Below, in pieces: positions 1,181 to 59,100 of a stretch of DNA of 64,000 nt. Source of the DNA: Closterium sp. NIES-65 (taxonomy: Eukaryota > Streptophyta > Zygnematophyceae > Desmidiales > Closteriaceae); contig CANXME010002310.1 in the NCBI GenBank assembly GCA_948144175.1, positions 219,501-283,500 of the forward strand, written 5' to 3'. Each line of letters begins with the position of its first letter. Positions within the stretch are counted from its first letter, which is position 1. Both the position numbers and the translations under genes were made by a program. The notes under the pieces were generated by a model. It was not told the origin of the DNA and did not search any database. It saw only the letters and a program-made list of their open reading frames with translations.

Positions 1181-4100
1181 GGAGAGATCCATATGATAAC
1201 ATAGGCGCTGGGAGAAGAGCTGAGTTAACGCTTGATTCGATTCAACAACAGTGCGCGACAAAGGGCTCAAGTACAACGATTAATGCAGGTGAGATGACGA
1301 ACGACGAGTACGTTCACAGTGCAAGACGAAGGGCTGTACGACGAGTAAAAAAAGCGTTTCTTACAGTCAGCTGTGAGGAGAGAGAAGAGCGAGCTGACAG
1401 CATCTGTAACCGCCGACACCTGCCACATGCAGAGCGACGCAATGCCACGTGGCACATGCACACAATGCACACAGCAGAGCACTGTCGCGTGAACACACAG
1501 AGCACTAAAGCATTCACTCACGCAATAACGAGCTAAGAAACTCCATTACTACGATCCAACACCGAGTTTTATCCTGTGCTTGTGGCTTAAACAAAAACAA
1601 CTCACACTCTTGAGTACCAAGCTGAATCACCTCCCAATCCGAACATCTGCTTCTCACCAACTCGTACCTGCTTCTCGTCCACCAGTCCCAGCTCCTTGAG
1701 TGCAGCCCGCGCCTTGAGCACCACGCCCGCAGCAGCACTACCTCTCACTTTCACCTTTCCCATCCCTCACCTAGCTCTCACCCATCCCAGCTCGCACCTG
1801 CTTCTCATCCTCCAGCCCCAGCTCCTTGAGCGCAGCCAGTGCCTTGAGAGCCACGCCCGCTGCACCATCTCTAACCTTTCCACACCACTACCAAACCCTC
1901 CGACCCATCAAACCTCACCTGCTTCTCATCCACCAGCCCCAGCTCCTTGAGTGCAGCCAGCGCCTCGAGAGCCACGCCCGCAGCAGCCACGGACCCCTGG
2001 CCGTCCTTCCCCGTTGCCCACGAGCCATCCGCCTGCTTCAGTGCCTGTTGATGTACAAAATTTTCTTTTACGATTTTAATCTCTCCAAAAAAGGTCGGAA
2101 CGAATCATGCAGGCGGCAACGAGCATGGGACCAGATGAACAACACAGCCACCCACAATTACACTGGCGACGAACGTAATGCGGGGCTCTGAAGGCAGCAG
2201 CGTGGATGAGAGAGAGGCTTACGAGGATAGCAGCAGCAGCCTTCTTGAGGCCTGCAGGCACGGACCCAGTGCTCCACTTGTTGGCCTGGTAGTACCATGA
2301 AATTCGGTTGGCGGGAACATTTGTGGAAAAGGAGGGAAGCGAAAAAAGCAATGAGCAATGAGCCATGAGGCGAGGGCGCAAGAGAATGCAGCAACGGGCT
2401 TCTTAAGGCCTGAGGAGGACCCCCAGTACTCTACTTGTTCGCCTGGTACCATGTTGTATGAGTTGAGCATCCGTGACTTTTGAGTCGACTCAAACGTCAC
2501 CTTGGAGGACCCGCAGAACTCTACTTGTTCGCCTGGTACCATGTTGTATGAGTTAAGCGTCCGTGGGGAAGGAGGGAACGGATGGAAGCAATGAGCGCGT
2601 AGGGGCGGAATAAGGAGAAAAGAAATGAGACGTGCTCTCCCTCCCCTTCGTCCTCCACACTAAGGGAGAGGGAGGGGAAACCCTGAACAAAAGAGGCACC
2701 ACTCCCAACAAGTGAGCTCGCTCTCTCTCTCCCTCTCACTCTGACTCTCCTTACGCTAACAGGCATCCACTTCGTCTCACCTTGAGGATCTGGGTGCCGG
2801 CTGCAGCGTAAAACAGCTGGTCAAGGGACGGCGAGGATGCAGCTGTCGACAAGAGAGGCTCCAATCCCAGCTCTCTCCCGCTCTCATTATCTTTCCTACC
2901 TCTCAAGTATGTCTCCCTGCCTCACCTTGAGGATCTGGGTGCCGGCTGCAGCGTAAAACAGCTGGTCAAGGGACGACGAGGATGCAGCTGTCGACAAGAG
3001 AGGCTCCAATCCCAGCTCTCTCCCGCTCTCATTATCTCTTCCTACCTCTCAAGTATGTCTCCCTGCCTCACCTTGAGGATCTGGGTGCCGGCTGCTGCGT
3101 AAAACAGCTGGTCAAGGGACGACGAGGATGCTGCTGGAGACAAGAGAGGCTCCGCTTCCTGCCAAGGAAGGAGGTGCGACAGCAGGTAGGAAGAGACGCC
3201 GGCGCAAATAGAGCGGATTTACTATCGAACGGATGACCGTAGTGGCAGAATAAACTAGCTAGCAGAACATAGTCATGAAAAAGAGAAACAAATATAACGA
3301 TAACACCCTTGCAGCCGAGCGCAGCGAGTTTTGAGCGGCCTCAAAACTTGAAAAGAGGACGGGTGCGTTACCTTGACAACGGCGCTAGCGGCCTTGCAGC
3401 CGAGCGCAGCGAGTTTTGAGCGGCCTCAAAACTCGAGAAGAGGACGGGTGCGTTACCTTGACAACGGCGCTAACGCCCTTGCAGCCGAGCGCAGCAGCGA
3501 TCGAAACCTTCTGAAAGGCCTCCTCTGCTGACGTGGCGGCTGGAAGCTTCTTCAGCCACGCGCAGAGCTTGGCCGAATCGAGCGACGACTTCGAGACGAC
3601 GCTCAGAAGCTTGACTGCCTGAAAGGTCTCCTTCAAACTGGCGGGATGACAAACCGTAAGTGGTGGAAAGGGAGAATGCGACGGCAGCGCATAATGAGAC
3701 AGGGGACACTCGCGCGCTTGGTTTTGAGGCGCCACTGAACGGTCAGAAGATTCACTGCCTGAAATGTGTCCGTCAACCCGGGGAGACGAGAACCGGTAAG
3801 TAGTGGAAAGGGAGTGCGGGATTGAGCGAACGCTGAAAACGGTACGCGTTGTAATGGGAACACGCGATTGAAAGTAACGATTAGTTCACAACAATTTCGC
3901 CCTTTTCCCTCTGACGACAAGACGAGCAAAAGCGGCGCCTTTCGTCTCCCCAGCAACCATAGACTGTCATGGTCATGGTTTAACTCATACTCTGATTCAT
4001 GAGATCTGAAACAGAGATGTTGCATCCATCGTTCTCGACGGAAAACACGAGGGTGTAACATGGTAACCCGCAGCTCTGGTAATCTACAGCCGGTTTAACT

Positions 4101-14710: not shown

Positions 14711-17700
14711 ATGGAATCTGGGGTTGCAGAGGGTAAGGAGGTAGGCGCGTTGGCGGTGGACGCCGCGCCGCGTGCGGCGGAGATTAAGGACGCGAAGGAC
14801 CGCCGGTGGGATCGTAGCGAGATTCGCGGCATGTGGGAGTTTGCGTCGATACTTGATTTTTTCAGAGTAATAATTCGCGTTCATGCGTCGCAAGCGTAGG
14901 ACATAAGCGTCGCCGTTGATTTCACGGTTGAATTAAAAAACAGGACTTTCCGCGGTTACCGGCACTTGGTCGCGTTAGTATGATAGCATGAGAAAAAGTT
15001 GCAGAGTCTTCCTTTTTGTAACGGTAGATCAAAATTATTTCATGCGCCATATCAGCTTCCCGTCTCCAAATCCTTCTGCGGTGAACGAGCTTAAATGGCG
15101 ATTCGGGATCTCTCGCGTCGCGTTATTCGCGCCGCGATCATCGAACCATGGCCTCTGCCTCACTCGCGTGTCTTCACTGAGTATTCCCCGTAATCCTCCT
15201 TCGCAATATCCTCATATACTTCATGTCTCTCCGATCCTGCTCAAATCCATTACGTTTTTTTCCCAGATTTTCCGGGAGCCGCTACAACTTAACATCGACG
15301 CTACAGCCGAAGACATCGAAACGGCTCTGCTAACCCCGGACCCGTCTCCACTTCTTAAAGACATACACATTACGCTTCTTAAGGTGACTAGGGTTTGCTC
15401 GCAGCGCCACGCGACTTGGCATCACTGGCCTATGGCGGCTCGTAGTCGCGTCGAGCATCCATCCTAACGTAACGCAACGTTATTTCCTTTTCGTAGCGCT
15501 TGTTCGGTTGACGGAATCCGTTAGGGTTAGTCGGCTTACTGTAGGCGGCGCTCAGCATCTGCTGTCAGCTTGTCGACGCTTTTCAGTAGAGTGGTTACCT
15601 TTCGGCAATTTCTGTGTTTCGCCAGTGGTTTCATTTCGCAAAAATCATTGTTTCTTCAGGCATTCAGGCACTCCGGCATTCAGGCATTCAGGCATTCATG
15701 CATTCATGTATTCATTCTTTCGGGCATGCAGGCATTCAGGCGTTCAGGCATGCAGGCGTTCAGGCATTCAGGCCTTCAGACATTTAGGCATTCAGGCATA
15801 CAGGCATACAGGCATTCATGCATTCAGGCATTCATGCATTCATGCATTCAGGCATTCATGCATTCATGCATTCAGGCACTCATGCATTCATGCATTCAGG
15901 CATTCATGCGTTCATGCATCCATGCATTCATGCATTCGGCATTCAGGCATTCATGCATTCATGCATTCAGGCACTCATGCATTCATGCATTCAGGCATTC
16001 ATGCGTTCATGCATTCATGCATTCATGCATTCGGCATTCATGCAGTCAGGCATTCATGCATTCACGCTTTCATGCATTCATGCATTCACGCATTCAGGCA
16101 TTCATGCATTCATGCATTCATGCATTCAGGCATTCATGCATTCAGGCATTCATGCATTCAGGCACTCATGCATTCATGCACTCATGCATTCATGCATTCA
16201 GGCATTCATGCGTTCATGCATTCATGCATTCATGCATTCGGCATTCATGCATTCACGCTTTCATGAATTCATGCATTCACGCATTCAGGCATTCATGCAT
16301 TCATGCATTCATGCATTCAGGCATTCATGCATTCATGCATTCATGCATTCATGCATTCATGCATTCAGGCATTCATGCATTCATGCATTCATGCATTCAT
16401 GCATTCATGCATTCAGGCATTCATGCATTCATGCATTCATGCACAGCATAGCACTTTTCATGGAGCGCCCACATGTCGCTCGTCCCAGTTCATGTTTTGA
16501 CACGGGAACATTGATCTGAGCCAACTGCTCCGCCCCACCCCTTTCAGGAACTCAGGCTATAAGGCATTCAGGCATTCACTCATCATGGAGCGCCCACATG
16601 TCGCTCGTCCCAGTTCATGCTTTGACACGGGACCAGTTAAAAAAACTTGGACCAGGAGCACTGAACTGATCCGCTCCGCCCCACCCCTTTCTCCCGCTCC
16701 TCCCGTGCATGCAGGGCATTCAACCGTTCAACCGCCCGCCAGCCGACCACCGCACATGGGCCACACTTGTGTGTCGTCCCCTCTGCCATGCTCTCATCTC
16801 TCCCTCCCTTCTGTCCCCCTCCTCTTCTACCCTTGCAGGGCATTCAGCCATTCAACCGCCCGCCAGCCGACCATCGCACATGGGCCACTCTTGTGTGTCG
16901 TCGCGTGCACAACACATGGCCGCAGGTAGTTAGGGGTGATCAAGAATGCGTGATGATGATGATCTTGTTGCATGCGGAATGTTGTATGTTGCTTGCTTGC
17001 CATTCATGGGGTACACTTGTGTGCCGTCGCGTGCACAACACATGGCTGCAGGTAGTTATGATGCATGCATGCCATGCCATGCCATGCCATGCATGAGTCA
17101 AGGGCTACTGTTGTGCACCGTCACATGCACAACACATGGCCACAGGTAGGCATGAATGATCCATTTATACATGCCATGTGTGTGTGGCCCATGAAATCAT
17201 GTGCATTGCACAAGATAAGGCTGCAAGTCAAGCATGATGAGATATGATGCATGCATACATGCCATGTGTGATGCATACATGCCATGTGTGATGCATACAT
17301 GCCATGTGTTATGCATACATGCCATGTGTGATGCATGCATGCCTGTTGAGTTTGCACCGCACAAACAACACGTTGCAGCAGATACAGCATACATGCATGA
17401 AGTGTCTGCCCCTCCTTGCATCTAAATGAAAACCATTCCCACTCCCCACAAATGTGCACGTGTGTGTGTGTGTGTACGTGTGCGCGCACGTGCGGTGTGT
17501 GTTGCCGTTGCGTGCACGCATGTGTGTGTGCTTGTTTGTGTCTGTGAATGCATCCCTACTTGTCTCCCTAACCAGGTTGCACCGGGGATTTGCCCTCTCT
17601 ATTCCTGTCAGGGGTAAGTGCTTTTGTACTTTGGCTTTGTACACACACCCTTCAACTCCTGCTCCTGGTGGGGCTTGCTTCTGCTCCTCCTGCTCCTCCT

Positions 17701-20700
17701 GCTCCTTCCGCTCGTCTCATAAGGAACAGGGGGCATGTGCCCGCCCGCCTCGCATGTGCCACACGTCTATGATGCTGCAGGGATTCTTTGAGAATTCTCG
17801 CAGGGCTTTGAGGAATCCCTGGGGTGGGGCATGCGCCCGCCTCGCATGTGCCCACACCTCTTCCTGTGTGCCCGCCTCTCCCCCTTATGGACCCTATCCC
17901 CACTCCAGGGCTGAGGCAGAGCTCTACGCGTCTCTCCCTCCCCCTGACCGCGTGCGCATCTTGAAAGCTCTCTGCGAGATTCGGCTGGATGTGAGTAGAC
18001 AGACAGACACTTGTGCGTGCGTTGGGCGGAATAGGGAGCTGTGTGTTGAATAGAGCTGCTTAGGTGACTTTTGAGTCGACTCAAAAGTGACTGTGCGTGC
18101 GTTGGGCAGAATAGGGAGCTGTGTGTTGAATAATAGAGCACCTTACAGTAGAGAGGCATTCAGTAGGGAGGCAGGCGCTTTTCCAGTGGTGGTAGAGGCT
18201 GGCTGCTATGAAGAGGAACCTTGAGTATGAGTCGAGTTTTGAGTCGGCTCAAAACTCGACTCACTACACGCTATGAAGAGGAACCTTGAAGGGATGTGCT
18301 CTTCCCTCCCACCCCCTGATTGCGCGTGCATCTTGATTCCTGACAGGTGGCCTATCAACTCCTCTCTATTTCCCTCCCTCACTCCCTGCCTCCCTCCTGC
18401 TGCTACCCATACCCCCCCCCCCCCCCCCCCCCCCCCCTCACCACGCAGCAAGAGGACACTCGAGTGGTGGTAGAGGCGGCCATGAAAAGGAATCCCGATG
18501 AGATTGGTGGCTTATTAACTCCTCTCCACTCCTCTCTACCTCTCTACTTATCCCCGTCCCCACACTGCACAGCAAGAGGACACGCGAGTGGTGGTAGAGG
18601 CGGTCATGAAGAAAAATCCCGAGGAGATTGCTGCCCTATCCCCTGGCTCCCTCTCGGACCCTGCTGTACCCATCCCCACCGCGCAGCAAGAGGACACTCG
18701 AGTGGTGGTGGTAGAGGCGGCCATGAAGAGGAACCTTGAGGAGATTGGTGGCTTATCCTCTAGCCCCTCTGTATCCCTCTCGGACCCTGCTGTACCCATC
18801 CCCACCACACAGCAAGAGGACACGCGAGTGGTGGTAGAGGCGGCCATGAAAAGGAATCCCGAGGAGATTCGCATGGAGCCGTTTGGCATGGACGCCAACA
18901 ACCACGTGTTCTGGTGGGTGCATCGTGGTGAAATGCGGTGAAGTGCGGTGCAGTCCATCATAGAAAAATGCGAGTTGAGGTTCCTTGTATTCGGGGTTCT
19001 GCAACGATTCTGTCCTGGGTGACTCGGTCACCACCTGTCCAAAGTGGGCGGGCCCACCTTTCTATCGTTTCGCACAAGAGGAGGCTGACACTGCTGCTGC
19101 TTCTGCTGCTGCTGCTGACTCTTCGTTTCTTGTGTTATGTTGTGCCCAATTTCAATCGTACTTGTCAACATTCAGGTTTTGCAATGACTCTGTGTTGGGC
19201 CATCGCCTGTTCAAAGAGGGTCCACCCGTTTTCATCACACAGGAAGAGGCTGACGCTGCTGCCGCTGCTGCTGCTGACTCCTGCCTTTTCTTGTGCTTAA
19301 CTCCCATCCCATTCTGCTTTTCCCTCTCCCCATCAACTCCCTGCCGTCAGGTTTTGCAACGACTCAGTGTTGGGCCATCGGCTGTTCAAAGAGGGCCCAC
19401 ACGTTTTCATCACACAGGAAGAGGCTGATGCTGCTGCTGACTCTGCTTTTTCTTGTGCCCAACTTCCATCCTCCAGGTTTTGCAACGACTCTGTGTTGGG
19501 CCATCGGCTGTTCAAAGAGGGCCTACACGTTTTCATCACACAGGAAGAGGCTGATGCTGCTTCTGGCTCTGCTTTTTCTCGTGCCCAACTTCCATCCTCC
19601 AGGTTTTGCAACGACTCTGTGTTGGGCCATCGGCTGTTCAAAGAGGGCCCACACGTTTTCATCACACAGGAAGAGGCTGATGCTGCTGCTGACTCTGCTT
19701 TTTCTTGTGCCCAACTTCCATCCTGCAGGTTTTGCAACGACTCTGTGTTGGGCCATCGGCTGTTCAAAGAGGGCCCACACGTTTTCATCACACAGGAAGA
19801 GGCTGACGCTGCTGCCGCCGCCGCTGCCGCCACTGCTGCCGCAGCCGCTGCTGCTGCTGAAGCTGAAGCGGCTGAAGCTGCTGCTGCTGCTGCTGTTGCT
19901 GCTAGCGCGGCTGTTCCTGCACTTGCTGCTGATTCTACTGCTGTTTCTCCTGCAGAAACCGTAGCACTGGTGGTGGAAGGAGCAAAGGCAGAGAGTGCAA
20001 GAGATGCTGCCACAAGTGTTGGTAACGACAAAGCTAAAACAGAAGTTGCTGCTGTTAATGGAGAGGCGGTGGCAGTGATGGTGGAAGGAGCAAAGGCGGA
20101 GGCTGCAAAAGGTGCTGCCGAGAGTGCTGCTAAAGTGGAAGCTGAATCTGAAACAGAAGCTGCTGAGCCTACTCAATCGGCCAGAAGCGTCGATGATCAC
20201 ACAGACGCCACTGTTCCTGCAGAGACAGTGGCAGCGATGGTGGAAGGAGCAAAGGCGGGGGCTGGAAAAATTGCTGACAATAGTACTGCTAAAGCTGAAG
20301 CTGAAGCTGAAATAGAAGCTGATGAGCCCACTCAACCGGCCAGAAGCTCTGATGATCACACAGTCGCCACTGCTCTCATGCCTCGTGCGCCGAGAAGTGA
20401 GGAAGTGGCAGGGGCAGCAGAGGCAGCAACAGAGCGGCCAGAGGTGGCAGAGGTAGCACAGGTAGCAGATATGGCAGTGGTGGCAGAGGCAGAAAAGGCG
20501 GCAGAGGTGGCAGAGGTGGCAGGGGCAGAAAAGGCAGCTAAGGCAGCGACAGCAGATATTGCAAGGGTGTCTGCTAGTGCTGAAGCTGATGTGCCTGCCA
20601 CACAGCCTGCTACTAGCGCTGATGTTACCAGCGCTGCTGCTACTGCTGCTGCTGCTTCTGATGGTGCAGCTGCTGCTGCTGCTGCTGCTGACGGTGCTGC

Positions 20701-23700
20701 TGCTGATGGTGATAATGCATCAGCGGCCAAGGAGGCCCCATCTGGCAAAGCTGGAGCATCTGAGCCGTCCGTTAGCCCAACACCAGCATCCGATCCCCTA
20801 CAATCTGAACCACCACCCAATTCCACTCTCGAAGTCTCTGCTGCTGACAGCGTTACAGCGATCAGTGTGGTAACCAGATTGGGTGATGTGAAGTCGTGTG
20901 CAACTGGTGTTGAATTGATTCTAAAGTCGCCTATTGGGAGTCCCGACAATAAGGGTTTATCACGTGGGAACCATAGGGAGTTCTTGCGAGGAAATGGTAA
21001 AGAGTCGCAAGGAGATAGGGATTTTATGAGCGGCCTAGCCGCTATCGGTGGATTGAAGGCTTTAGTCGGGGTGAAGGCTGAGGAGGAGGAGGAGGAGGGG
21101 GGAGTGAAGGGGAGAGGAGGAGAGGAAAGTGGGGTAGGAGCGAAGGAGCAAGGGGTAAAAGCGGAAGAGGAAGGAAAGGGTAAAAAGGGAGACGAAGAGG
21201 ATAAGGTGCTTGTGAGGAGAGGGGCTGGAGCGAAGGAGAATGAGAGGGTTTACAGGAGGCGAGGTGGCAGGGAGGCGGGTAGGAAGGATTGTGAGCGTGG
21301 GGAGGGGGGCAAGAGGGAGGTGAAAGGAGAAGAAGAGAGCAATAGAGGTGGCGTTGGTGTGGGTGAAGAGCGTGGAAGATACGAGGGAGAAGAAGAGGAG
21401 GAGGTGAAGGAGGTGAAGGAGGTGAAGGAGGTGAAGGAGGGAGAGGAGGAGACGAAGGAGGAGGAAGAGGAGAAGGATGCTGCTGTGATTGACTTAACTG
21501 ACGCAGATCCCTGCATGCCTGCTCAAGGCGGCTCAGCTGAACCTGCTCAAGACCCCTCAGGCACCGCTGCTGCTGGAAAGGCCTCGGTTGTTGCTGGTAA
21601 GGCAGACTCTGCTGCCAAGGCAGATTCGAGCGCCCGTCCTACTCGCCATGGCATGAGCACGCGAACCAGGTCCGGCAGTCTCCGCCCTCCTTCCGCCTCC
21701 AAACCTGCTCCCAAGCCTGCTGCCAAGCCTGCTTCCAAGGGCACTCCCACCAAGGGTGGCAGCAAGAAGGGGAGAGGAGCCGATGCTGCTGCTGCTGCTG
21801 GAGGGGAGGGGAGGAGGAAGGCAAAGAAGAAGGCCAAACCAGTTTTCCTGCCACCTGTGTGTGGCGAGTTCGCCACTGCAGCCGTCTGCCTCACAGACTT
21901 CACAGCTCTCGCGGTGAGTCTGCAGAACTGCGTCCTTTAAGTGCGAAGAAGAAGGCCAGGCCAGTTTTCCTGCCACCTGTGCATGGCGAGTTTGCCACTG
22001 CTGCTGTGTGTCTCACAGACTTTACTGCTCTCGCGGTGAGTCACTTCACTCTGAGGAGATCCCTTTTCAAGGACCTCAATATTGGCCCGGCTGGTGTTCC
22101 TGCCACCTGTGTGTGGCGAGTTCGCCACTGCTGCTGTGTGTCTCACAGACTTCACTGCTCTCGCGGTGAGTTAGCTGGTACTTGGTTGGAGCTTTGAGTG
22201 TGCTGTGCTTTTCGTTAACTGTATTGAGTTTTATTTTGTGCATCTCAAAAGTTTACTCCAGACTTGAAGCCAATTTCACTGGATGATATGACTGCTTATT
22301 GGACTTAGAACATCAGTTTATACCTGTTTCTAATACAAAATCGGATCAGCTTATATGAGTTTCTTCCCTCCCGCTGCCTTCCTTGGCGTGCCTGTATCTG
22401 CAGGACGACCTCAGCGCCAGTGTGCATAACGCGGATCAGCTTATAGCGGATCGCTTGGCAGAGGAGGCCATACCTAAAGTGGAGCTAGAAGAGAAGGTGA
22501 GGAGGGAGGGACGGGATTGTTCTTTCACCCGCGCACTCTCACTGTCACTCTCACTCTCACTCATTTTCAATCACATGCTAATGTTATTTCAACACTCACC
22601 TCCCTCTTCCCTCTCCCTCTCCTTTCATGCCTCCTCACACCAGCACAAGGAGCAGCATGCAAAGAGGCAGCAGTGGCAGGCAGCACAGCAGGCAGTAGCC
22701 ATGGCACAGCTGTATCCAACTCCTTGCTTTCTGCTACATACTTGTCTCGTCTCAATTTTTTAGGCGCCTAGAAAATGCATGGCACACTTGTATCCAACTC
22801 CTTGCTTTCTGCCACATACTCGTATCGCCTCTCTCTTTTTTTCCCTGCTCTCCCCTTCCCCCATCCGCACAAGGAGTGGCATGCGAAGAGGCAGCAGAGG
22901 CAAGCGGCGCAGCTGGCAGCGCAGCTAGCAGCTAAGTTTGTACCCGAAACCCTCTCTCTTCACTTCCGTTCACCCCTCTTCTGTACCCCCACCAGCGCAA
23001 GGAGCGAGAGGCAGCAGAGGCAGGTGGCGCAGCTGGCAGCCACTGTCACACTCGAACCCTTTCCCTGTTTTAAAAAAGCGGAGTGATTTGAGACGTCTCG
23101 AAACACTCCTTTCTTCACGTGGCAGCCACTGTCACACTCGAACCCTTTCCCTGTTTTTAAAAAACGGAGTGATTTGAGACGCCTCAAAACACTCCTTTCT
23201 TCACGTGGCAGCCACTGTCACACTCGAACCCTTTCCCTGTTTTTAAAAAACGGAGTGATTTAAGACGTCTCAAAACACTCCTTTCTTCACGTGGCAGCCA
23301 CTGTCACACTCGAACCCTTTCCCTGTTTTTAAAAAACGGAGTGATTTGAGACGTCTCAAAACACTCGTTTCTTCACGTGGCAGCCACTGTCACACTCGAA
23401 CCTAGGGTTGAGCAAAAAAACGAACACCTGTTCGGTTCGCCTCGAACACGTTCAAGGCGAACCGAACAGGTTTTTTTTTTTGGCTTAAAATGTTCGCCGA
23501 ACAGTGTTCGATGTTCGCCCGAACACGTTCGTGTTCGGGCCGCTGCTGCAATTTGCCCGCGACGAACACGAACAGTGTTCGAGGTTCGCCCGAACACGCC
23601 TTCACAGGCGAACGGCGAACACCATTTTTTGCTCAAAGTGTTCGCCGAACCGAACAGTGTTCGGTTCGGCAAACGAAGGTGTTCGTGTAGGGGCGAACAC

Positions 23701-31405: not shown

Positions 31406-31438
<33 letters not shown>

Positions 31439-41294: not shown

Positions 41295-44200
41295 ATGGAT
41301 ATTCTATCGCGTCAGTACGGGAGTGACGAGGAGGGAGGGGAGGATTCTCCGCGAGAGAAATCTACGATAACAGCTTCTCCGCCTCGGGAAAAGCAGGCTT
41401 TTGGTACCAATACTGGTGCAACCCTAACCGGTTCTGCTGGGGTTACTGCAAGCAAGTCAGCGTCACGAATTGCTCAGGAAAACGACGATAACGATAGCGA
41501 CGATGACAATATGGCGTACAGGTTTCTCGCTCCCCCTAGTTCGGCCGCTCCGCCAGTGAGCGACGCTTTACTCGCTGCTGTACCACGCGATATTATGACA
41601 GCTCCCATCGACCCGTCGAAGCGGAATTTACAATTTAATCCAACTTACGATCAACTGTGGACTCCTGTAGTGGGACCCGCGCATCCTCATAACGCGGACG
41701 GCCGCGCGTTAGGGTTGCGAAACCACCGGCTGGGATCCGTCCAAGACGCGTCGGTGGACTCTTTTGTCTTCGATGAACAGTACCACACGTTTCAGGCGTA
41801 CGGCTACAGTGTTGACCCCGCAAGTGTAAACGGGACCGAGGTCGTGGGTGATAAAGAAGCGGTTGACACTAAGGCGGGTGCTACAGTGTACAATGTGTCT
41901 AAACAGGAGCGGGAAAAGCGGGCTATGGCGGTGAAAGAGGAGGAGAGGAGGAAAAAGGCGGAGGAGAAGCAGAGGAAGGAGGAGGAGAGGAAGAGGAAGG
42001 AAGAGAAGAAGAGGAGGAAGGAGGAGGAGAGAGCGAAGAAGGAAGAGAGGAAGAGGAAGAAGGAGGAAGAGAAAGCGAGAAAGGCTGCAAAGAAGAAGCG
42101 GAAGGGGGAAGGTGATGTGGGGGCGGAGGTGGGAGCGGAAGGGGAGGAGGGAGCAGGAGGAGAGGGGGAGGGGGAGGGGGAAGGGGAGGGGAAGAAGCGA
42201 GGGCGGCAAGGGAAGGGTGTTAAAGAGGAGGAGGGTGAGGAAAGGGCAAAGAAGAGCAGGGAGGAGGAGAGAGAAGAGGAGGAGGCAGAAGAGGAAGAAG
42301 AGGAGAGTGAGGAGGAGGAAGAGGAGGAAGAGAGCGAAGAAGAGGAGGAGGAGGAAGAAGAGAGTGAAGAAGAGGAGGAGGAGGAAGAGGAGGCTCCAGA
42401 AGCGGAACTAGCCAATCCGGCGTCAGAATCATGGCTCCTCAAAAGCTCCAAATCCCCCTGGGCAGGCAAAAAAGAGGAACCCAAGGCTGAGCTGACCGAG
42501 GAGCAAAAAAAATACGCGGAGGAGCACGCTTTGAAAAAAGCCAAGAAGGAGAGAGGAGACAAGGAGGAGGTGGAAGAAAAGAGCACGTTCCATGGGAAGC
42601 AGGAGAAGGACTATCAGGGTCGCTCGTGGATTGCACCGCCTAAAGACGCCCTTAATCCCGTGCCGCCCACGCATTGCTATATTCCGAAGCGGTGGATTCA
42701 CACGTGGAGCGGGCATACTAAGGGCGTCAGTGCTATCCGGTTCTTCCCCAAGTGAGTATCATAGGTGCTGAGGTTCCGGACTTGAAGTGAGTTCTGTAAC
42801 CCGAAGACGCCTTTCAGGCGGATCCACGTGAAAGAAGGAGTGTTTTGAGACGTCTCAAAACATTCCGGACTTGAAGTGAGTTCTGTAACCCAAAGGCGCC
42901 TTTCAGGCGGATTCACACGTGGAGCGGGCATACCAAGGGTGTCATTGCCATCCGGTTCTTCCCTAAGTACGGCCATCTGCTGCTGTCTGCATCAATGGAC
43001 ACCAAGATCAAGATCTGGGACGTGCCCAACATGCAGAAGTGCATTCGCACCTACATGGGTCACTCCAAGGCCATGCCGTGCGCGACCTTTGCTCCTCCTC
43101 TCCTTGCCTCTTCTCATTACTCTCCCCTTTTCCCTCTCCTCTCCCCCCGCTCTTCTCCCCTCTCTCCCCTTTTTTCTCTCTTCCCCTCCGTATTCTCCCC
43201 TCTCTTCCTCCTCTGTCCCACCAGGTACGGCCATCTACTGCTGTCTGCATCAATGGACACCAAGATCAAGATCTGGGACGTGCCCAACATGCAGAAGTGC
43301 ATGTGCACCTACATGGGTCACTCCAAGGCCGTTCGAGACATTTTCTCCTCCTCTCTTCGCCTCTTCTCCTCACTCTCCCCTTTTTTTTCTCTCTTCCCCC
43401 CTCTTGTCCTCTTCTCCCCCCTCTTCTCCACTCTTCCCCTCTCTTCCCCACTCTTCCCTTCTCTTCCCTTCGCTTCCTCCTCTGTCTGTCCCACCAGGTA
43501 CGGCCATCTACTGCTGTCTGCATCAATGGACACCAAGATCAAGATCTGGGACGTGCCCAACACGCAGAAGTGCATGCGCACCTACATGGGTCACTCCAAG
43601 GCGGTTCGAGACATTTGCTTTGCGAACGACGGGCTGAAATTCGTCTCGTGCGGTTACGACCGTAACATCAAGCTCTGGGACACCGAGACCGGGCAGGTCA
43701 CGGGGACGTTTTCCACGGGTAAAATACCCTACGTGGTGAAATTACACCCCGACGACGACAAGCAGAACATTCTGCTGGCGGGGATGAGCGACAAGAAGAT
43801 CATGCAGTGGGACACGCGGTCAGGGGAAATTACCCAGGAATATGACCAACATTTGGGTGCAGTCAATACGATTACGTTTCTGGATGACAACAGGCGGTTT
43901 GTAACGAGCAGCGACGACAAATCGTTGCGCGTGTGGGAGTTTGGTATTCCCGTTGTCGTCAAGTATATCAGGTAAGCAATACACTACTTCCTTTCTTCTC
44001 TGCCCTGCTCTGCTCTTCGCTTTGTCCCCTCTTTTGAATCAACTTCAATGTCATTCTGACAAGCCCCTGCGTGTGTGGGATGTGGGATTCCTCTTGTCGT
44101 CAAGTATTTCAGATAACCTTCTCTGCACTGCTTTCCTCGTTTAGTGAGGTGCATTTTGAGGCGCCTCAAAATGCACGTGGGATTCCTCTTGTCGTCAAGT

Positions 44201-46746
44201 ATTTCAGATAACCTTCTCTGCTCCTCTGCTTTCCTTGTTGCCTTTTGAGTCGACTCAAAAGTCACCTCCTCTTGTCGTCAAGTATATCAGACAACCTTCT
44301 CTGCTCCTCTGCTTTCCTTGTTGCCCGTCCAGATCCTGTTTTCCCGCTTCTCATCCCTTCTCATTCCACCGCACCTCTCTTTCCCTTTTTCTTCCATCTG
44401 ATTTCCCTCTGCTCGCTCCTTTTGAGTCGACTCAAAAGCCAACCCGCCCCTGTCGTCCCCTGTCCCTCCTTTTGAGTCGACTCAAAAGTCTGCTGTTGCG
44501 ACTCAAAAGTCTGCTGTTGCGACTCAAAAATCTGCTGTTGCGACTCAGAAGTCATTTCCTTTTTCCCCGCTGATTTCCCTCTGCTCGCTCCTCTGCCTCC
44601 TCCCTCCCCCCCCCTTACACCAGTGAGCCGCACATGCACTCCATGCCAGCCATAGCAGTGCATCCCAACGAGGCGTGGGTGGCAGCATATATGGAGAGCC
44701 AAAGGCCCATCCTTCTCATCCCCCTCTCTGCTTTCCCTTCTGCTTGCCCTCTCCCTCACACCAGCGAACCACACATGCACTCCATGCCAGCCATAGCAGT
44801 ATCCCAACAAGGCATGTGTGGCAGCATGCATGTGTGAAGCCAAGGACTGTCTTTTCATCCTTCCCCCTTGCACGCCCCTTCCTCTCCCTCTCTACTCCCT
44901 TCCCCCCCACACCAGTGAGCCGCACATGCACTCTATGCCAGCCATAGCAGTGCATCCCAACAAGGCGTGGGTGGCAGCTCAATCCCTGGACAACCAGATC
45001 ATCGTATACGGTGCTAAGGACCGGTTCCGGCTCAACAGGAAGAAGCGTTTCGCAGGCCACATCATTGCAGGATACGCCTGCCAGGTGGGTGGTGTGAAGA
45101 GGAGATTGGCCAGGTGGGGAGGGGGCCTTGCAGGGCTCTGGTATAGGGCTCGGGGGGACACAGACATAGGGGGCGATGGGGTGGGCTGGCAGGCAGCTCA
45201 ATCCCTGGACAACCAAATCATTGTGTATGGTGCTAAGGACCGGTTCCGGCTGAACAGGAAGAAGCGGGTTCGCAGGCCACATCATTGGGGGATACGCCTG
45301 CCAGGTGGGTAGAGTAGAGCGGGCATTGGGGGGACAGGCATTGGAGGAAGATTCATAGGGGGATAGGCTTGGGGACAGTGGAAGCTCAATGCTTGGACAG
45401 CTCGATCATTGTACATGGTGCTAAGGGCCGGTTCCGGCTGAACTGCAAGAGGCGGTTTGCAGGCCACAGCATTACAGGATATGCATGCCAGGTGGGTTGT
45501 GGGGGCCGGCTCGTGGGGGCAGGCTCGTGGGGGCAGGCTCGTGGGGGCAGGCTCGTGGGGGCAGGCTCGTGGGGGCCGGCTCGTGGGGGCCGGCTCGTGG
45601 GGGCAGGCTGGTGGAGCAATGATGGCTTGTTTGGTTTGGTGCATCCTCACCCCCCCGTGACCAGGTCAGCTTTTCTCCAGATGCTCGATTCATAATGTCT
45701 TTTGAGGCGCCTCAAAAGTTTTCTCCAGATGCTCGATTCATAATGTCGGGCGACGGCGACGGCAAGCTGTGGCTTTGTGTGGTTATTTGTCACTTTCTTC
45801 CATTCAACCCCCACCTGTTACCCCCACTCTCTCACACGCCACCTGGTGAATTTCTCTCGCGACAGCCGGTTCATAACGTCGGGGGATGGAGAGGGCAAGC
45901 TGTGGTTCTGAGCGCCGCACCCACAAAGTGACTTTTGAGTCAGAACCACCCACAGAAAAGTCACCTCTGAGCGCCGCACCCACACCCACCCTAACCCCAA
46001 CCCCCCCACCGCACCCCCACACGCCACCAGGTGAACTTCTCTCCGGACAGCCGGTTCATAATGTCGGGCGACGGAGAGGGCAAGCTGTGGTTCTGAATGG
46101 CTCATTCCTTCCATGCACAACCCCACCCACCCTAACCCCAACCCCCCCACCGCACCCCCACACGCCACCAGGTGAACTTCTCCCCGGACGGCCGGTTCAT
46201 CATGTCGGGCGACGGAGAGGGCAAGCTGTGGTTTTTGGACTGGAAGACATGCAAGGTGTTCTGCACAGTCAAGTGCCACGACTCGGTGTGCATCGGGTGC
46301 GAGTGGCTCTTATGCCTGTCAGCAGCGCCACCAATGGTTTTCAGGAACACCAACACCTACGCCCTTGCCCCTCCCTCCCCCATCCCCTTCCCTCCCCCGT
46401 TCTCCTGTTGGTGCTCGCCTCCCATTTTCCCCCACACCACCAGGTGAACTTTTCCCCGGATGGCCGGTTCATAATGTCAGGGGACGGAGAGGGCAAGCTG
46501 TGGTTTTGGGACTGGAAGACATGCAAGGTGTTCCGCACAGTCAAGTGCCACGACTCGGTGTGCATCGGGTGTGAATGGCACCCCCTGGAGACCAGCAAGG
46601 TGGCCACGTGCGGCTGGGATGGGCTCATCAAATACTGGTCAGTGATTGGTCAAAAGTGTGTGACCTTTGTTACTGTAGGATATGTCTGTTGCTACAGTCA
46701 AGTGCCACGACTCGGTGTGCATCGAGTGCAAGTGGCACTTGCTTGA
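41295..46746 (+). CDS. PRP17: Pre-mRNA splicing factor PRP17/CDC40 (WD40 protein)
   Basis: PRP17 acts in the second catalytic step of pre-mRNA splicing in the spliceosome. Exons: 41295-42751, 43498-43971, 44916-45084, 46444-46746; phases agree and give 800 residues. Exon 1 has the family N-terminus ([34 protein letters not shown]), then a Lys/Glu-rich insert ending in long polyglutamate (about 42285-42395), then [19 protein letters not shown]. The WD40 domain follows: [113 protein letters not shown] and [13 protein letters not shown]. The family usually ends at about this point; here the frame runs about 37 residues further, or ends earlier through a later copy (KYW then TGA at 46797). The charged insert is unusual. 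Confidence 0.92.
42843..42860. repeat. Palindrome, ACGT centre
   Basis: TTTTGAG-ACGT-CTCAAAA with TG/CA extension in the first PRP17 intron. TTCCGGACTTGAAGTGAGTT and GCGGAT(C/T)CAC flank it on both sides. Confidence 0.93.
42908..43497 (+). repeat. Copies of PRP17 exons 1 and 2, one joined without an intron
   Basis: At about 42908-43070 the end of exon 1 ([19 protein letters not shown]) runs directly into exon 2 ([11 protein letters not shown]) with no intron. A further exon 2 copy with its acceptor starts at 43225. The exon used in my model starts at 43498. Confidence 0.85.
44149..44176. repeat. 28-bp perfect palindrome, GCGC centre
   Basis: TTTTGAG-GCGC-CTCAAAA extended by GTGCA/TGCAC. GGGATTCCTCTTGTCGTCAA lies on both sides. 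Confidence 0.94.
44243..44260. repeat. Palindrome, TCGA centre
   Basis: TTTTGAG-TCGA-CTCAAAA, extended by C/G. CTCTTGTCGTCAAGTAT and TTCTCTGCTCCTCTGC lie on both sides. Confidence 0.94.
44420..44437. repeat. Palindrome, TCGA centre
   Basis: Same core. TGATTTCCCTCTGCTCGCTC precedes it and recurs at about 44570. Confidence 0.93.
44470..44556. repeat. Palindrome, TCGA centre, with its right arm amplified
   Basis: A full core at 44470-44487 is followed by a 21-bp tandem repeat, GACTCAAAAGTCTGCTGTTG plus C, starting at 44479, 44500, 44521 and 44542 (the last degenerate). The repeat includes the right arm of the palindrome. Confidence 0.92.
44620..45492 (+). repeat. Copies of PRP17 exon 3
   Basis: 5' copies with acceptors lie near 44624 and 44765. 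The complete copy is 44916-45084. 3' copies with donors lie near 45196-45305 (one extra G breaks the frame) and 45384-45491 (diverged). Confidence 0.85.
45497..45612. repeat. 14-bp tandem repeat, GGGGCAGGCTCGTG
   Basis: About eight units in a PRP17 intron, just after the donor of the last exon 3 copy. Confidence 0.9.
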
Positions 46747-48096: not shown

Positions 48097-50576
48097 ATGG
48101 CTTCCACTATTGATCAACTTAAGAACATTCCCATCACAACTGGCGAAGTCATCGCGGAATACGTCTGGTGAGCCTAGGCAAACGCTTGAGAATTCTCAAA
48201 CCAATGTAAGCGTTTGCCTTCTTTATCTGACACTCGTTGAACGTTCTCGATCTTTTTTTCCCGCAGGATTGGAGGATCGGGAATTGATGTCAGAAGCAAG
48301 GCCAGGGTAAGCTTCTCCGCGAAGTTCAGCATCTTATTGCCCATTCAAGTTGCTCAAACTAATCAGCTTTCAAAAAGGGTCAGCTCGTTTCATTTCATCC
48401 GAATTCCGTTTTCGTTTCTTCGTGCAGACTGTGAAGGGTCCCATTGGTCCCGGCGACGTCGCGAAGCTTCCCAAGTGGAACTTTGATGGTTCCAGCACGG
48501 GACAGGCTCCGGGCACAGACAGCGAAGTGATCCTCTAGTGAGTCCCGCCTCCTGTTACAGGCGCCTTTCATTACAGGGGCCTCCCGTTTCTTTGGCATAC
48601 ATCGGCTAATATTAAACCATCCCTCATTCATGCTGCCCTTCCGGCACGTATGCAAAATTCCGACATGACTATCTATCTGGTTTTGGTGCTCATGTGATAC
48701 CTTTTGGCAGCCCTCAAGCCGTGTTCAAGGATCCCTTCCGTGGCGGCGACAACATTCTGGTGAGAAGCTATATGAGTAGGCTTTGACGCGAGCGCTCACA
48801 TATTGATCGCGTGGGCCTGACACACGCTCGTTACTAGCGACCGCTTGTACCAATCGCTTGCGCTGTACACGCTGTGCATGCGAACAGCCACGCCGTCACA
48901 ATCGCTTGGTTTTCTTGAACGCATTTTCTTAAGCGTCTCCACGCATTTTCTTGAACGCATTTTCTTGAACGCATTTTCTTAAGCTTCTTAAGTGGAATCG
49001 TGTAGTAGTACAATCATTTAACATACCCTCTTTTCGCTGTTGCTTTTCCTGTCGTTACTACCAGGTCATGTGCGATTGTTACACTCCGCAAGGCGAGCCC
49101 ATTCCCAGCAACAAGCGCGCCTTCGCAGCTTCTGTGTTCGAGAAAGTCAAGGACCACGAGCCCTGGTACGTCTCGTCTTCCCAACAAGCGTGCTTACTTA
49201 CATTACCTCTAAGCCCTGGAATATATAGGGCTGCCTTTTCCACGATGCCTGTCTTTTCACGTGCCTCCCGTGCCTTTTCCTGTTGATTCACATGCCTCTC
49301 GCATTCACGTTATGTCAATTCGTTTTTTTATGTCCCATTCCCCCGTGCCCAACCCTGCCTCGGCGTCCCGGAACCACCATCGCAGGTTCGGCTTGGAGCA
49401 GGAATACACTCTCCTCAAGAAGGACGTCAAGTGGCCCCTCGGCTGGCCCACCGGCGGCTACCCCGCTCCGCAAGGGCCGTACTACTGCGGCACGGGCGCG
49501 GACAAGGCGTGGGGTCGCGACATTGTCGACGCGCATTACAAGGCGTGCCTGTACGCGGGGATTAACATCAGCGGCATTAACGCGGAGGTGATGCCGGGCC
49601 AGTGGGAGTTCCAGGTGGGCCCCTGCACGGGTATCGAGGCGGGCGATCACCTGTGGATGGCGCGGTATTTGTTGGAGAGAGTGACGGAGATGGCAGACGT
49701 GGTGCTTTCGCTGGATCCCAAGCCGATCGAGGGCGACTGGAATGGCGCCGGCTGCCATACCAACTACAGGTCGGTTTGCTGCTAGTCTAAAGCTACGAAC
49801 CCTTTTCTTTCCCCCTTTCCAAGACAGCTCTCCCTTTCTCTGCCGGTTTCTAGCAAATCTTTTGAAAGCGAGGTTGTTCAATCGTTTCGTTGTGATCGTG
49901 TGTTGGGGTTCTCCCGTGCAGCACCAAGGCAATGCGCGAGGAGGGCGGGTACGATCTGATCGTGAAGGCGATCGAGAAGCTGGGGCTGAAGCACAAGGAG
50001 CATATCGCGGCGTACGGCGAGGGCAACGAGCGCCGCCTCACGGGCAAGCACGAGACGGCCGACATGAACACCTTCTCCTGGGTACGCGACTTTATTTTTC
50101 CTTTCTTTTTCCTTAGCGTATGTCGGTAGCATGATGAGAGCACGCTGTAGCAGTTGGAATGAACGAGCCAATTCTGTCTGCTTACTTCGTGATCCTTCTC
50201 TGTCTCTTCTTCCCTTCCTTTCTTCCCCCCCCCTGCCCCACTTTTACTCCAGGGTGTGGCCAACCGTGGCTGCTCGGTCCGTGTGGGTCGCGACACAGAG
50301 GCGCAGAAGAAGGGTGAGTCGAATTTCTCCTTGCATTCGCGCTCTATTGTGAGCGCATTTCTGAGCACGTAACTCTTGTTTTTTTATCTCGTGGATCAAA
50401 AGCAACAAACTCCTGAAACATGCTAAGAACCACGCTTTACAAAATGTCTCTGGTCATCTGACACCTTTCCAGGTTACTTCGAGGACAGGCGGCCATCGTC
50501 TAACATGGACCCATACATTGTCACGGGCAAGATTGCAGAGACCACCATCCTGTGGGAGCCTACTGGTATGTTCTGA
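48097..50576 (+). CDS. GLN1: Cytosolic glutamine synthetase (GS1)
   Basis: Catalyses ATP-dependent formation of glutamine from glutamate and ammonia. Nine exons: 48097-48167, 48267-48306, 48428-48537, 48711-48759, 49065-49165, 49386-49769, 49922-50081, 50253-50313 and 50473-50576, all phases consistent, 359 residues. Landmarks: [20 protein letters not shown] in the N-terminal domain, [56 protein letters not shown], the ATP/glutamate loop [33 protein letters not shown] and [20 protein letters not shown]. There is no transit peptide, so it is the cytosolic form. Typical GS1 ends at TTILW-x-P; here four more residues follow (TGMF). An alternative is splicing at the GTATGT in the last codons, but no later exon is seen. 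This is one of the least disturbed genes in the window. Confidence 0.97.
48177..48219. repeat. Palindrome, AATT centre, inside a larger inverted repeat
   Basis: In the first GS1 intron. The core (CTTGAG-AATT-CTCAAA type, 48184-48201) lies between GGCAAACGCTT (48177-48187) and AAGCGTTTGCC (to 48219). The arms are one base short of the usual form. Confidence 0.8.
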
Positions 50577-53636: not shown

Positions 53637-53771
53637 CAGACACGCTTTCTCCGCTTGCGTCCCGGTCACGGTCGCTGCGAGCTTTTGGTGAGAATCGCTT
53701 CAGGGAGTAACGGTCAGCACGAACTGGGCAAGAGAGGCGCCTCTTCTCTGACAGCTAAGATGAGAAGACTC

Positions 53772-53779
53772 TTTTTATA
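53772..53779 (-). promoter_or_regulatory. TATA box of the secreted Pro/Val-rich gene
   Basis: TATAAAAA on the minus strand, about 136-143 bases before the ATG at 53636, leaving room for a leader of about 100 bases. Confidence 0.7.
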
Positions 53780-56116: not shown

Positions 56117-59100
56117 ATGTCGGGCGCGGCGTCAGCGGTGTACATCCTGGACATGAAGGGGAGGGTCCTGATATGGAGGGATTACCGTGGCGATGTTCCT
56201 GCATCCGCTGCAGAGAAATTCTTCAACAAGCTGATGGAAGGCGAGGTACGCGATGAGGATTGAAGTCAAACCATATTCATGTCCTGATGTGGATCATTAC
56301 ATCATAAGAATGCCTGAAGTTTAGGCGGACTCTCGGTGTATGTTTGCAGCGTCGTGCAAGCTCTCATTTTCCAACAGAGAATCCAGGAATGCATTTTAGG
56401 ATCGTAGTCCGCATGTTATTCTGGCGACATTGGCTGGTCGTGGAAGCATGCTGTTTGGATTTCACCGTCAGTGTCAGTGTGTGTAATCAAATCTGACCGT
56501 TTGGTCGCTTCTGCTTGCCGTCTCACCAGTTGACATCCGCTCTGCGTCATTTCACGCTCTATCCATTGATTCCTCGTAACCGATGGTTCCGAATCCTCAC
56601 ACGCTCGCGCTCTCCTTGTCGCGTCAGGCTGACCCGTCCTCGCGAGAGCCAGTGATTTTGGACAACGGAGTGACGTACCTCTTCATTCAGCACAACAACG
56701 TGTACCTCATGATCGCCACCCGGCAAAACGCCAACGCGGCCAGCCTACTGCTCTTCCTTCACAAAGCCGTGGAGGTGAGTGGGTCGTAGAGATTGGTTTG
56801 AGTTGGGTCGGATGTGCCGGTAATTGCTCATGTATGCCTGGTGTTGGTTCGGATGTCAATGATGATGGCTCGTGTGTGCCTGGGCATGGCTCGGATGCGC
56901 CTGCTGATGGCTGATGTGTGCTTTGCGATGGTTTGGATGTCCCTTATGATGGCTCATGTATGCTTTGCGGTGGGTCATATGTACCTCGTGGTTTCATCGC
57001 ATATTTCGCGCGTAACTCATGATTGGATCGCTTACGGCTGATGCGAATCGCATGCGTCTGACGATTTAGTCGCATGTGTCTGACTAGAGTTACATGCATC
57101 TGATGACTGGTTCTCGTGCACCTGATGATTGAGTCGCATGAAATCGATCTTTGGGTTGCATGCAGCCAACAGCATGGGAATTGGCATAGCTTGACGTGTT
57201 CGGGCTGTGTGAATTTTCTGATCAGTTTCTGGGAAGCTGCGAGCAAATCCACTGCGGTGTTTAGTATCAACGACAAATATTTCCGTTATTGATACAGAAG
57301 GGTTGTGACCGCAAGTCTGTGACGGATGGCGGTAGGTAGAAATGATGCTTACGAATCTTCATGTGTATTTTCTTTCGTCACAGGTGTTCAAGTACTACTT
57401 CGACGAGCTGGAAGAGGAGTCCCTAAGAGACAACTTCGTCATTGTGGTACGTGTTGTTGCTTGAAAGTGTTTCCATCACAGCAAGCCAACTGAGTCTCTG
57501 CCTATTGTGGTTCCCCCCTCTTCCACGTTCTCCCTGCCGCTCTTCTTTAAGCGTCCTCATGTCCCGATCCCTTCTTCTTGCTGGTCTTCACTCCCATTGC
57601 CTTGACATCCCCCTTCCCGACACCATTCCTCCCCGTCTCCCACCCCAACTCTCCCATGCTCTCCACCCCCCCGCCTCCCCTCCCTCCCCTCTTCTGCTCT
57701 CAATTTTCCCACCCCTTCCCTCCCCCGCTCCTCAGCTTACCCCTTTTTACCACCTAACTCCTTTGGCTAACCTGTGCCACCACCGTGCAGTACCAGCTAC
57801 TGGGCGAAATAATGGATTATGGTACCCGCAAGTCACTCCCCCCCGTCCCTCTCCGGAACCCACCCGTCCCCCTCTCCTCGTCCCTCCCCTTCTCCCCATT
57901 GCCCCGTTCTTCCTTTAACCTTCCCTGTGCCACCATCGCGCAGTACGAGCTCCTGGACGAGATAATAGATTTCGGATACCCGCAATTCACGCCCCCTCCC
58001 TCCCCTCTCCCACCCCACCCTTCCCCTCCTCCCCACCCCTCCCGTCCTCCCCTTCCCCCCTTTCCCCCTTTCGCCTTCCCTGTGCCACCCGCGTAGTACG
58101 AGCTACTGGACGAGATAATGGATTTCGGATACCCGCAATTCACGGAGGCAAAGATTCTGAGCGAGTTCATCAAGACGGACTCGTACCGCCTGGAGCTGTC
58201 CACGCCCAAGCCCAACATCGCTGCCGTCACCAAACGCCGTCTCCTGGCGTAGCGAGGGCATCCGGTACAAGAAGAACGAGGTGAGCGCGTGCATGAGTTT
58301 TTGGTGCATATGGTGCCAGAGAGAGCCCCCCACACACTTCCAGGTGTCACGAACGCTGTCTCATGGCGTTCCTCTTTTGTTTTGCTTTTTCCCCACACTG
58401 TTTAATTGTTTTTTTTATGTGCATGTGTTCCTGGATGTGTGTTGAGAGTGGACATCCTAGACATTTGCAGACTGTTGAACGTGCCAATCATTTGCTTTCT
58501 GTGTCTTATTGAATGTCTCTATCTTTATTCACAGGTGTTCCTGGATGTGGTTTGAGAGTTGTGAACATCCTGGTGAACAGCAACGGTCAAGTGTGCGGTC
58601 TGAAGTCGTGGGCGCCCTCAAGATGCGAACGTACCTCAGGTGAAGACACGAGGGGGAAGGAAGAAAGGGGAAAACATGGGCGAGGAAGGGGGGTAGAGAG
58701 GGGTGCGGGAAGGGGGGGGTGGTGGGAGGGAGGGATGTGGGAGAGGGTTGGGTCAGGGAGTATGACTTTGTTTCTCCTTTACCCATTCCCTTTGACCTTG
58801 GTCCCCTCCCGGTTGCTTGCCAGAGTGCAATTCGGGACTGATTATCGAACTTGTGTGTCCCTGCTCCCTCTTTCCCTCGACCTCTCTCCCAGTGGCATGC
58901 CAGAGTGCAAGCTAGGGCTGAACGACCGAGTGCTGCTGGAGGCACAGGGCAGAGCGACCAAGGGCAAGGCCATTGATCTGGACGATATTAAGTTCCATCA
59001 GTGAGTAGTTCTCCTACGCCCGTCTTTCATTCATTTTAGTCGACTCAAAATCAGGGCAGAGCGACCAAGGGTAAGGCGATTGATTTCGACTGTAATACGT

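Follow-up and report, generated by a model that had tools for sequence, protein, structure and literature searches.

Short palindromes inserted between direct duplications in Closterium sp. NIES-65, a possible new class of nuclear mobile DNA

Among the short mobile palindromes described so far, the GC42 cluster of yeast mitochondria carries a putative two-nucleotide target-site duplication (AG; PMC4478555). Others are known from the mitochondria of Lobosphaera and of sponges, from the organelles of Volvox and from bacteria, and none of the accounts consulted describes a long target duplication of variable length. Small tandem duplications have an established source in the fill-in of staggered breaks, as PMC8355091 sets out. 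Here we describe a palindrome, TTTTGAG-NNNN-CTCAAAA, that recurs in a 64-kb stretch of DNA from Closterium sp. NIES-65 (contig CANXME010002310.1, positions 219,501 to 283,500; the window) and across the genome assembly, in most cases between two direct copies of host sequence. Among the matches listed by searches of the open-access literature, some of them directed at known relatives or at the organism, there was no report of this element and no nuclear mobile palindrome whose target duplications are long and vary in length; none of the texts searched contains any of the family's four main 18-mers.

Allowing up to three mismatches, the pattern TTTTGAGNNNNCTCAAAA has 31 matches in the window against 3.33 expected; none of 100 shuffled sequences reached 31, and the highest count among them was 9. 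Sixteen matches to the core are exact, and the core is present in 16 of the window's 19 zero-loop palindromes with arms of at least 8. A preliminary description of this DNA had put the family at twenty elements or more, which the count bears out, and had proposed a genome-wide comparison with the chance rate. In the 874-Mb assembly (2,400 contigs) the exact core occurs 30,327 times and its reversed control 4 times. Thus chance and shuffled composition are ruled out, both by the window shuffles and by the reversed control. At 18 bp each, these exact copies account for about 0.06% of the assembly; 13,080 of them are centred on TCGA. Rfam, at its curated thresholds, gave no match in the window. 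Carriage on viruses was considered and rejected: a narrower pattern, CTTTTGAGNNNNCTCAAAAG, occurs in 26 IMG/VR stretches at one site each, which we took, without a computed control, as roughly the chance rate.

The anatomy of the sites was read in 262 kb, comprising the window and stretches of contigs C6, C9 and C10. Of this sample, 198 kb lie beyond the window (200 kb, 2 kb of it overlapping); because they were chosen for containing listed genome sites, they are useful for anatomy and not for density. Array members are included in the half-site, abutting-test, spacer and weak-event counts that follow. On both strands of the 262 kb the half-site TTTTGAG occurs 231 times: 134 copies have an exact partner, 46 have a partner with one or two mismatches and 51 are unpaired, compared with 31 for the rearranged word GAGTTTT. 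So few unpaired halves indicate that halves rarely travel alone and that the core mostly moves whole. The presence of the core in the inserts is a consequence of its being the search key, but the half-site count argues that it is not merely a product of that selection. For the 262 kb, a longer element using the core ends as terminal repeats is improbable because unpaired half-sites are too few; if one exists, it is not common in this sample.

The host sequence flanking the core is duplicated. A direct match between left and right flanks, scoring at least 40 within 300 bp, was observed at 25 of 26 window sites, yet also at 31% of 3,000 random positions, because the genome is rich in tandem duplications. 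A random-position control therefore matters. Requiring abutting, ungapped direct copies is stricter (the score threshold of 15 hides shorter duplications, and sites within 340 bp of a region end were omitted, as were candidates at three core mismatches that kept fewer than 6 of the 9 pairs). By this test 17 of the 26 window sites pass, and in the 262 kb 50 of 67 exact cores do so, compared with 48 of 500 random positions. An anchored version at score 20 gave 43 of 67 cores and 60 of 600 random positions. Core centres also fall within the spacers of duplications far more often than expected (29 of 67 versus 2.9, the spacers covering 4.3% of the sequence). For isolated sites, a short-match duplication test is passed by 21 of 33 (random positions, 134 of 1,000), and several of those that fail carry gapped or longer duplications. 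The nine failures in the window are two array ends (3329 and 23344), one site severed by a miniature inverted-repeat transposable element (MITE; 23770), five sites with gapped or more distant copies (27709, 44154, 44420, 44470 and 59033) and 48184. Hence the excess of direct repeats around the palindrome, claimed in the preliminary description, is real, while its wording that they occur in almost every case was somewhat generous. Approached from the duplications, 195 have a spacer of 8-90 bp and 47 of these hold a core with up to four mismatches, as do 1.6% of shuffled spacers. Duplications with a core are shorter than those without (median 54 versus 74 bp) and do not clearly differ in identity (0.94 versus 0.92, P 0.09).

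We defined 47 cleaner events as the sites passing at score 15, minus those sharing one duplication with another core; above one core mismatch, sites with a non-palindromic centre were dropped, and at least six of the events are last members of arrays. All have the order host copy A, insert, host copy A. Copy A measures 16-83 bp (median 34), not the 30-130 bp first proposed, and its two copies are 85-100% identical. The 16-bp lower bound reflects the score threshold, since little is visible below 15, and shorter duplications exist (matches of 9 and 11 bp). The insert measures 18-65 bp (median 28), with arm remnants of 0-26 nt on the left and 0-25 nt on the right; the longest of these, above 20 nt on one side in about four events, probably reflect misplaced boundaries. 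In the 47 events we found no 3' tail beyond AAAA and no strong motif at the two presumed nick points.

An empty site bears directly on the origin of the palindrome. At C6:118971 the filled site reads A (TGTCCTGTGATCTCACGGCA), the insert AGGTGACTTTTGAGTCGACTCAAAAG and a second A with one base different; a paralog at C6:73811-73923, with 78% identity where the two sequences match, has one A and no insert. The window itself offers internal empty sites at its nested events (24452 and 24575), where later copies of the unit continue without the insert. Because the empty paralogous site lacks the core, the palindrome is an insertion and not folded-back host sequence. In tandem inversion duplications the palindrome derives from host sequence at the junction; here the core is genome-wide and the empty site is without it. 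We conclude that insertion with target duplication is well supported. The preliminary description had offered two readings, and the first, a tiny insertion with very long target duplications, gains from the genome-wide family, the abutting duplications and the empty paralogous site. The second, which took the palindrome for a scar left when a break was repaired through a hairpin, does not hold in that simple form, because the palindrome is not built from local host sequence: the core recurs 30,327 times and is missing from the empty site. A break-repair step that captured the palindrome is likely.

The sites of the window are listed below by position on its forward strand. The fifteen positions that the preliminary description had called good are all right, fourteen being exact matches and 2478 having one mismatch. 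Its weaker sites were located as well, 3329 and 3414 being exact, the five assigned to an 86-bp array having one or two mismatches, 24806, 27709 and 59033 (there given as 59034) having two and 48184 three; four of the five lie inside that array and one is split off at 23770.

2414-2565: event; copies 2414-2475 and 2504-2565 (62 bp, 94% identical), insert 2476-2503, core 2478 with centre TCGA and one mismatch.
3301-3495: 85-bp tandem array; cores 3329 and 3414, both exact, centre CGGC.
18012-18132: event; copies 18012-18052 and 18092-18132 (41 bp, 98% identical), insert 18053-18091, core 18069, TCGA.
18205-18289: event; copies 18205-18224 and 18270-18289, insert 18225-18269 with a 16-bp-arm palindrome at 18228-18263; core 18237 with centre TCGG, not self-complementary.
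23034-23402: 86-bp tandem array; cores 23086, 23172, 23258 and 23344 of the ACGT subfamily, one or two mismatches, right arm CACTCCTTTCTTCACGTG.
23770-23787: fifth core of the 86-bp array, severed from it by a hAT-like MITE.
23973-24002: core 23979, AATT, in a perfect palindrome of 30 bp; the copies on either side are gapped or lie further away.
24389-24546: event; copies 24389-24451 and 24484-24546, insert 24452-24483, core 24452, ACGT, which lacks a left arm and has ATCTACTTTCTACA on the right.
24489-24683: nested second event; copies 24489-24564 and 24608-24683, insert 24565-24607 with a 38-bp perfect palindrome; core 24575, AATT.
24751-24872: weak event; core 24806, TCGA, two mismatches; flanking copies 81-88% identical.
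26495-26658: event; copies 26495-26559 and 26594-26658 (65 bp, 91% identical), insert 26560-26593, core 26561, TCGA.
27661-27806: weak event; copies 27661-27709 and 27758-27806; core 27709, GCGC, two mismatches, left end of core trimmed.
37269-37428: 59-bp tandem array; cores 37310 and 37369, GCGC; the insert is the bare 18-bp core.
42774-42916: event in a WD40 (PRP17-like) gene; copies 42774-42827 and 42863-42916, insert 42828-42862, core 42843, ACGT.
44082-44239: event; gapped copies 44082-44141 and 44177-44239 around a perfect palindrome of 28 bp (44149-44176) with core 44154, GCGC.
44184-44325: event; copies 44184-44242 and 44267-44325, insert 44243-44266, core 44243, TCGA.
44378-44592: two cores, 44420 and 44470, TCGA, and a 21-bp half-element array at 44478-44553; host copies 44378-44420 and 44552-44592, 86% identical.
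45671-45747: event in a WD40-coding stretch; copies 45671-45699 and 45719-45747, 100% identical, insert 45700-45718, core 45700, GCGC.
48184-48201: degraded core, AATT, three mismatches; no clear duplication.
58945-59133: weak event; core 59033, TCGA, two mismatches; copies 76% identical.

The core at 42843 has a long left arm (GTGAAAGAAGGAGTG) and a right arm cut to CA, and the same event is present on contigs C151 and C66. The first of these contigs is nearly identical to the window. The second, which carries single-nucleotide polymorphisms (SNPs) over the window's 22.5-28 kb and is probably a second haplotype, has all eleven palindromes listed for that interval. At 45700, C66 has TTTTGA after the second host copy, and the host sequence resumes at a short match; the net difference of 5 bp may represent an exchange between repeats. 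Arrays in which A and the palindrome (PAL) together form the unit were read directly in the window, C6 and C10. On at least eight contigs, element-bearing queries match at regular spacings of about 34, 46, 50, 73 and 74 bp, which are probably also arrays of A-PAL units. Such arrays suggest that an insertion may seed satellites.

The genes of the window include an OBERON-type PHD match, a prenyltransferase alpha subunit and the WD40 gene, which we take to be PRP17/CDC40. With the contigs that bear rbcL, they mark the assembly as eukaryotic and of the green plant lineage, probably a streptophyte alga. At 41-47 kb, stretches of exon and intron from the WD40 gene are repeated in tandem several times, in part as copies that seem broken, and a repeat similar to these copies, free of palindromes, lies at 19348-19815. 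The MITE that splits the 86-bp palindrome array (23403-23734, 332 bp) has hAT-like ends, TAGGGTTGAGC...GCTCATCCCTA, an 8-bp duplication, CTCGAACC, and about 40 scored matches elsewhere, mostly 97-99% identical. In the 59-bp array at 37269-37428, the duplicated host unit is itself an inverted repeat with 12-bp arms (TTCCCCTCGGGT...ACCCGAGGGGAA). A 14-bp minisatellite occupies 45499-45614, where the C66 version is 84 bp longer, and an array of about 99 copies of TTCATGCA occupies 15655-16443, with all three forward frames open over much of its length. Outside the window, C6:108903-109202 is one copy of a repeat about 300 bp long that is found at many loci with roughly 74-93% identity, partly in tandem with a spacing near 150 bp. 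Contigs C75, C97, C162, C824, C1848 and C2174 each have two to four copies of rbcL, in both orientations, as though plastid DNA had entered the assembly in the form of concatemers or isomers.

The symmetry of the element extends to its centre and beyond the core. The centres of the 67 exact cores are TCGA (27), ACGT (15), GCGC (14), AATT (4), CGGC (2) and five singletons; hence 60 of the 67 have a self-complementary centre, of four types. Three of the singletons (TTGA, TCAA and ACAT) are single CpG-type changes. Symmetric arms of at least 4 nt were observed in 15 of 56 cluster representatives, with 0.2 expected, and arms of at least 6 nt in 8 of 56, with 0.01 expected. In the window such palindromes reach 38 bp, and one at C10:472603 reaches 52 bp. 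Arms fall into subfamilies linked to the centre. TCGA goes with GTCACC outward, whereas ACGT is followed by twelve variable arm bases and then CACGTG: CAC stands at position 13 in 15 of 36 ACGT arms, and the full CACGTG in 7 of the 36, while it is never seen at the remaining offsets between 10 and 20. Genome-wide, the one-arm pattern of the TCGA subfamily has 3,607 matches and 613 sites have both arms, so that 2,381 sites have a single full GGTGAC arm; the arms are trimmed unequally. The core usually arrives whole, with arms that are often self-complementary and raggedly trimmed. Truncation of the core is uncommon yet occurs (window 27709 and C6:141619).

The best reading of these data, which we hold tentatively, is that a non-autonomous mobile palindrome has been captured at staggered breaks and that the filled-in overhangs have become the long duplication. 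To judge from the longest copies, the full element would be a perfect palindrome, consisting of the core TTTTGAG-NN|NN-CTCAAAA and subfamily-specific self-complementary arms of about 6-18 nt; an example would be CACGTG-N12-TTTTGAGAC|GTCTCAAAA-N12'-CACGTG. A copy, often with unequal arms, would be captured at a chromosome break made of two nicks in opposite strands, roughly 10-90 nt apart, and fill-in of the overhangs would convert the nicked interval into two direct copies around the palindrome (A-PAL-A). On this source of duplications, PMC8355091 cites the work of Vaughn and Bennetzen in rice. The mobile form would most simply be a hairpin, a folded strand with one arm, whose recessed 3' end copies the opposite arm. 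With such copying the arms could drift and yet stay complementary, and insertions with a single arm would be accounted for. Afterwards, the direct repeats would allow A-PAL-A to expand into tandem arrays. The hairpin, the paired nicks, the fill-in and any enzyme are steps that we infer from the anatomy of the sites. It is possible, and we put this more guardedly still, that the family represents a new class of mobile DNA: an interior-free nuclear palindrome of about 20-54 bp with a hairpin intermediate and tens of thousands of copies, duplicating some 10-90 bp of its target and thereby seeding tandem arrays and exon duplications.

The ages of the sites bear on this reading. The more decayed the core, the less alike are the two flanking copies (median identities 0.967, 0.946 and 0.919 for zero, one and two core mismatches; Spearman -0.35, P 0.001, n=83), and this fits insertion and duplication as a single event. 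Several observations weigh against capture of a mobile palindrome at breaks. The age trend itself breaks at six sites with three core mismatches, whose median identity is 0.946, and it includes array members, so its sites are not independent. Only one empty site is clear, and it comes from a 78%-identical paralog; the paralog of C6:72528, without the insert and the second copy, is consistent but too diverged to place the ends. Among the eleven palindromes compared with C66 over the window's 22.5-28 kb, there is no presence/absence polymorphism. Seventeen of the 67 exact cores fail the ungapped abutting test, and no duplication was detected around the palindrome at C6:112012. Tandem duplications without the palindrome are common (148 of the 195 spacers), so the duplication machinery need not belong to the element. 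Full two-armed copies are scarce, at 613 of 13,080 TCGA cores, and the putative 54-bp full form is pieced together from partial arms. Finally, the four central bases would be unpaired in a hairpin, so the model leaves the self-complementary centre of 60 of 67 cores unexplained.

Could the palindrome instead be copied through RNA? A short palindromic RNA might be reverse-transcribed at a nick by the enzyme of an element like a long interspersed nuclear element (LINE), the distance to the second-strand nick setting the length of the duplication. Variable-length duplications and ragged ends would be expected from such retroposition, a single full arm is commoner than two (2,381 versus 613 TCGA sites), and the core ends in AAAA/TTTT. 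However, the 47 events show no poly(A) or other tail beyond AAAA and are ragged at both ends, cuts within the core are uncommon, though seen, and an RNA loop would have no need of a centre that is mostly self-complementary. We regard retroposition as doubtful.

A self-complementary centre would be explained by a dimer-binding protein. In this alternative, a nuclease or transposase devoted to the element would bind to it as a dimer, hold and shield its 18-bp core, and insert it by way of nicks set far apart, as a eukaryotic analogue of the bacterial REP/RAYT system. The constant core, though its constancy is partly due to the search key, and the two-fold symmetric centre of four types agree with this, as do trimmed arms around a core that is rarely cut and a copy number in tens of thousands. 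Known transposases, however, make fixed-length duplications, and nothing in the 262 kb points to a longer element that ends in this way, unpaired half-sites being few. A dedicated enzyme of this kind seems unlikely to us.

Organelle palindromes moved to the nucleus, as in Volvox, are a third candidate. Nuclear copies of the Volvox palindrome make up about 0.06% of its nuclear DNA (PMC2670323), and the exact cores here come to about the same share. But the core is absent from 1.5 kb of plastid DNA, a very small sample, and transfer itself would leave the target duplication at each site unexplained. We consider this origin very unlikely.

Still less probable, to the point of being hardly tenable, is a local replication error in which a strand folds back and switches template, of the tandem-inversion-duplication type, making both palindrome and duplication from host sequence. 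It would combine symmetric arms and a direct duplication in one structure, and at 45700 the C66 version resembles, in our own reading, a slip and return at a 4-base match. Yet the identical 14 letters are found 30,327 times, the core is absent at the empty site, and the sequence after the second copy starts with TTTTGAG in 0 of 47 events. The empty site refutes replication error as the source of the core and leaves it a role only in array growth and in later changes of the arms. Least credible of all is an artefact of assembly or library at adapter or concatemer junctions: library chemistry can produce palindromic joins between copies, but adapter chimeras usually yield inverted and not direct copies, flanking copies and cores are mutated with identity declining as the core decays, an empty paralog exists, and SNP-bearing C66 has the same eleven sites in 22.5-28 kb, an indirect test of the artefact that the preliminary description had named as a refutation.

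If capture at staggered breaks is right, the palindrome would, in our own judgement, for which no search was made, be among the smallest nuclear mobile DNAs known. One insertion would make a tandem duplication, copying exons, introns or spacers, and then satellite-like arrays. How short palindromes spread is a question shared with organelle palindromes, and the family would let it be tested, since 30,327 exact copies carry their own clock in the flanking copies and a record of symmetry in the arms.

How does the element compare with known systems? Like MITEs, of which the hAT-like element at 23403-23734 is an example, it is short, non-autonomous, terminally inverted and present in many copies. 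MITEs, however, have an interior and fixed short duplications, as class II elements do, with precise ends, whereas the element here is all palindrome, with ragged remnants on both sides and long target duplications that vary from 16 to 83 bp. That variability it shares with short interspersed nuclear elements mobilised by LINEs. We know of no long target duplication for the bacterial REP/REPIN elements. These elements, with their RAYT transposases, likewise represent minute palindromic or hairpin DNA in many copies, thought in their case to be moved in trans (PMC3116915 and PMC8266576); they differ in being bacterial and in that the proposed unit is a REP doublet. The duplications around it resemble those of staggered breaks in being direct, shorter than about 100 bp and explicable by nearby opposing-strand nicks that are filled in and joined; those duplications have no specific palindrome at the junction, and the word hairpin is absent from the text of PMC8355091. 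The organelle palindromes of the green alga Volvox carteri are also short repeats, about 50 nt long and able to form hairpins, that have multiplied in spacers and introns and have copies in the nucleus. They differ in their unpaired loop of 3-5 nt, and the nuclear copies are regarded as transfers from the organelles that are inert; nowhere does that text (PMC2670323) use the terms direct repeat, target site or duplicat. The GC clusters of yeast mitochondria (PMC4478555) are likewise short (GC42 is 42 nt), palindromic and proliferating, by a mechanism that is unsettled. They carry the putative AG duplication, whereas the palindrome of Closterium lies on nuclear contigs, between duplications of 16-83 bp whose length varies from site to site.

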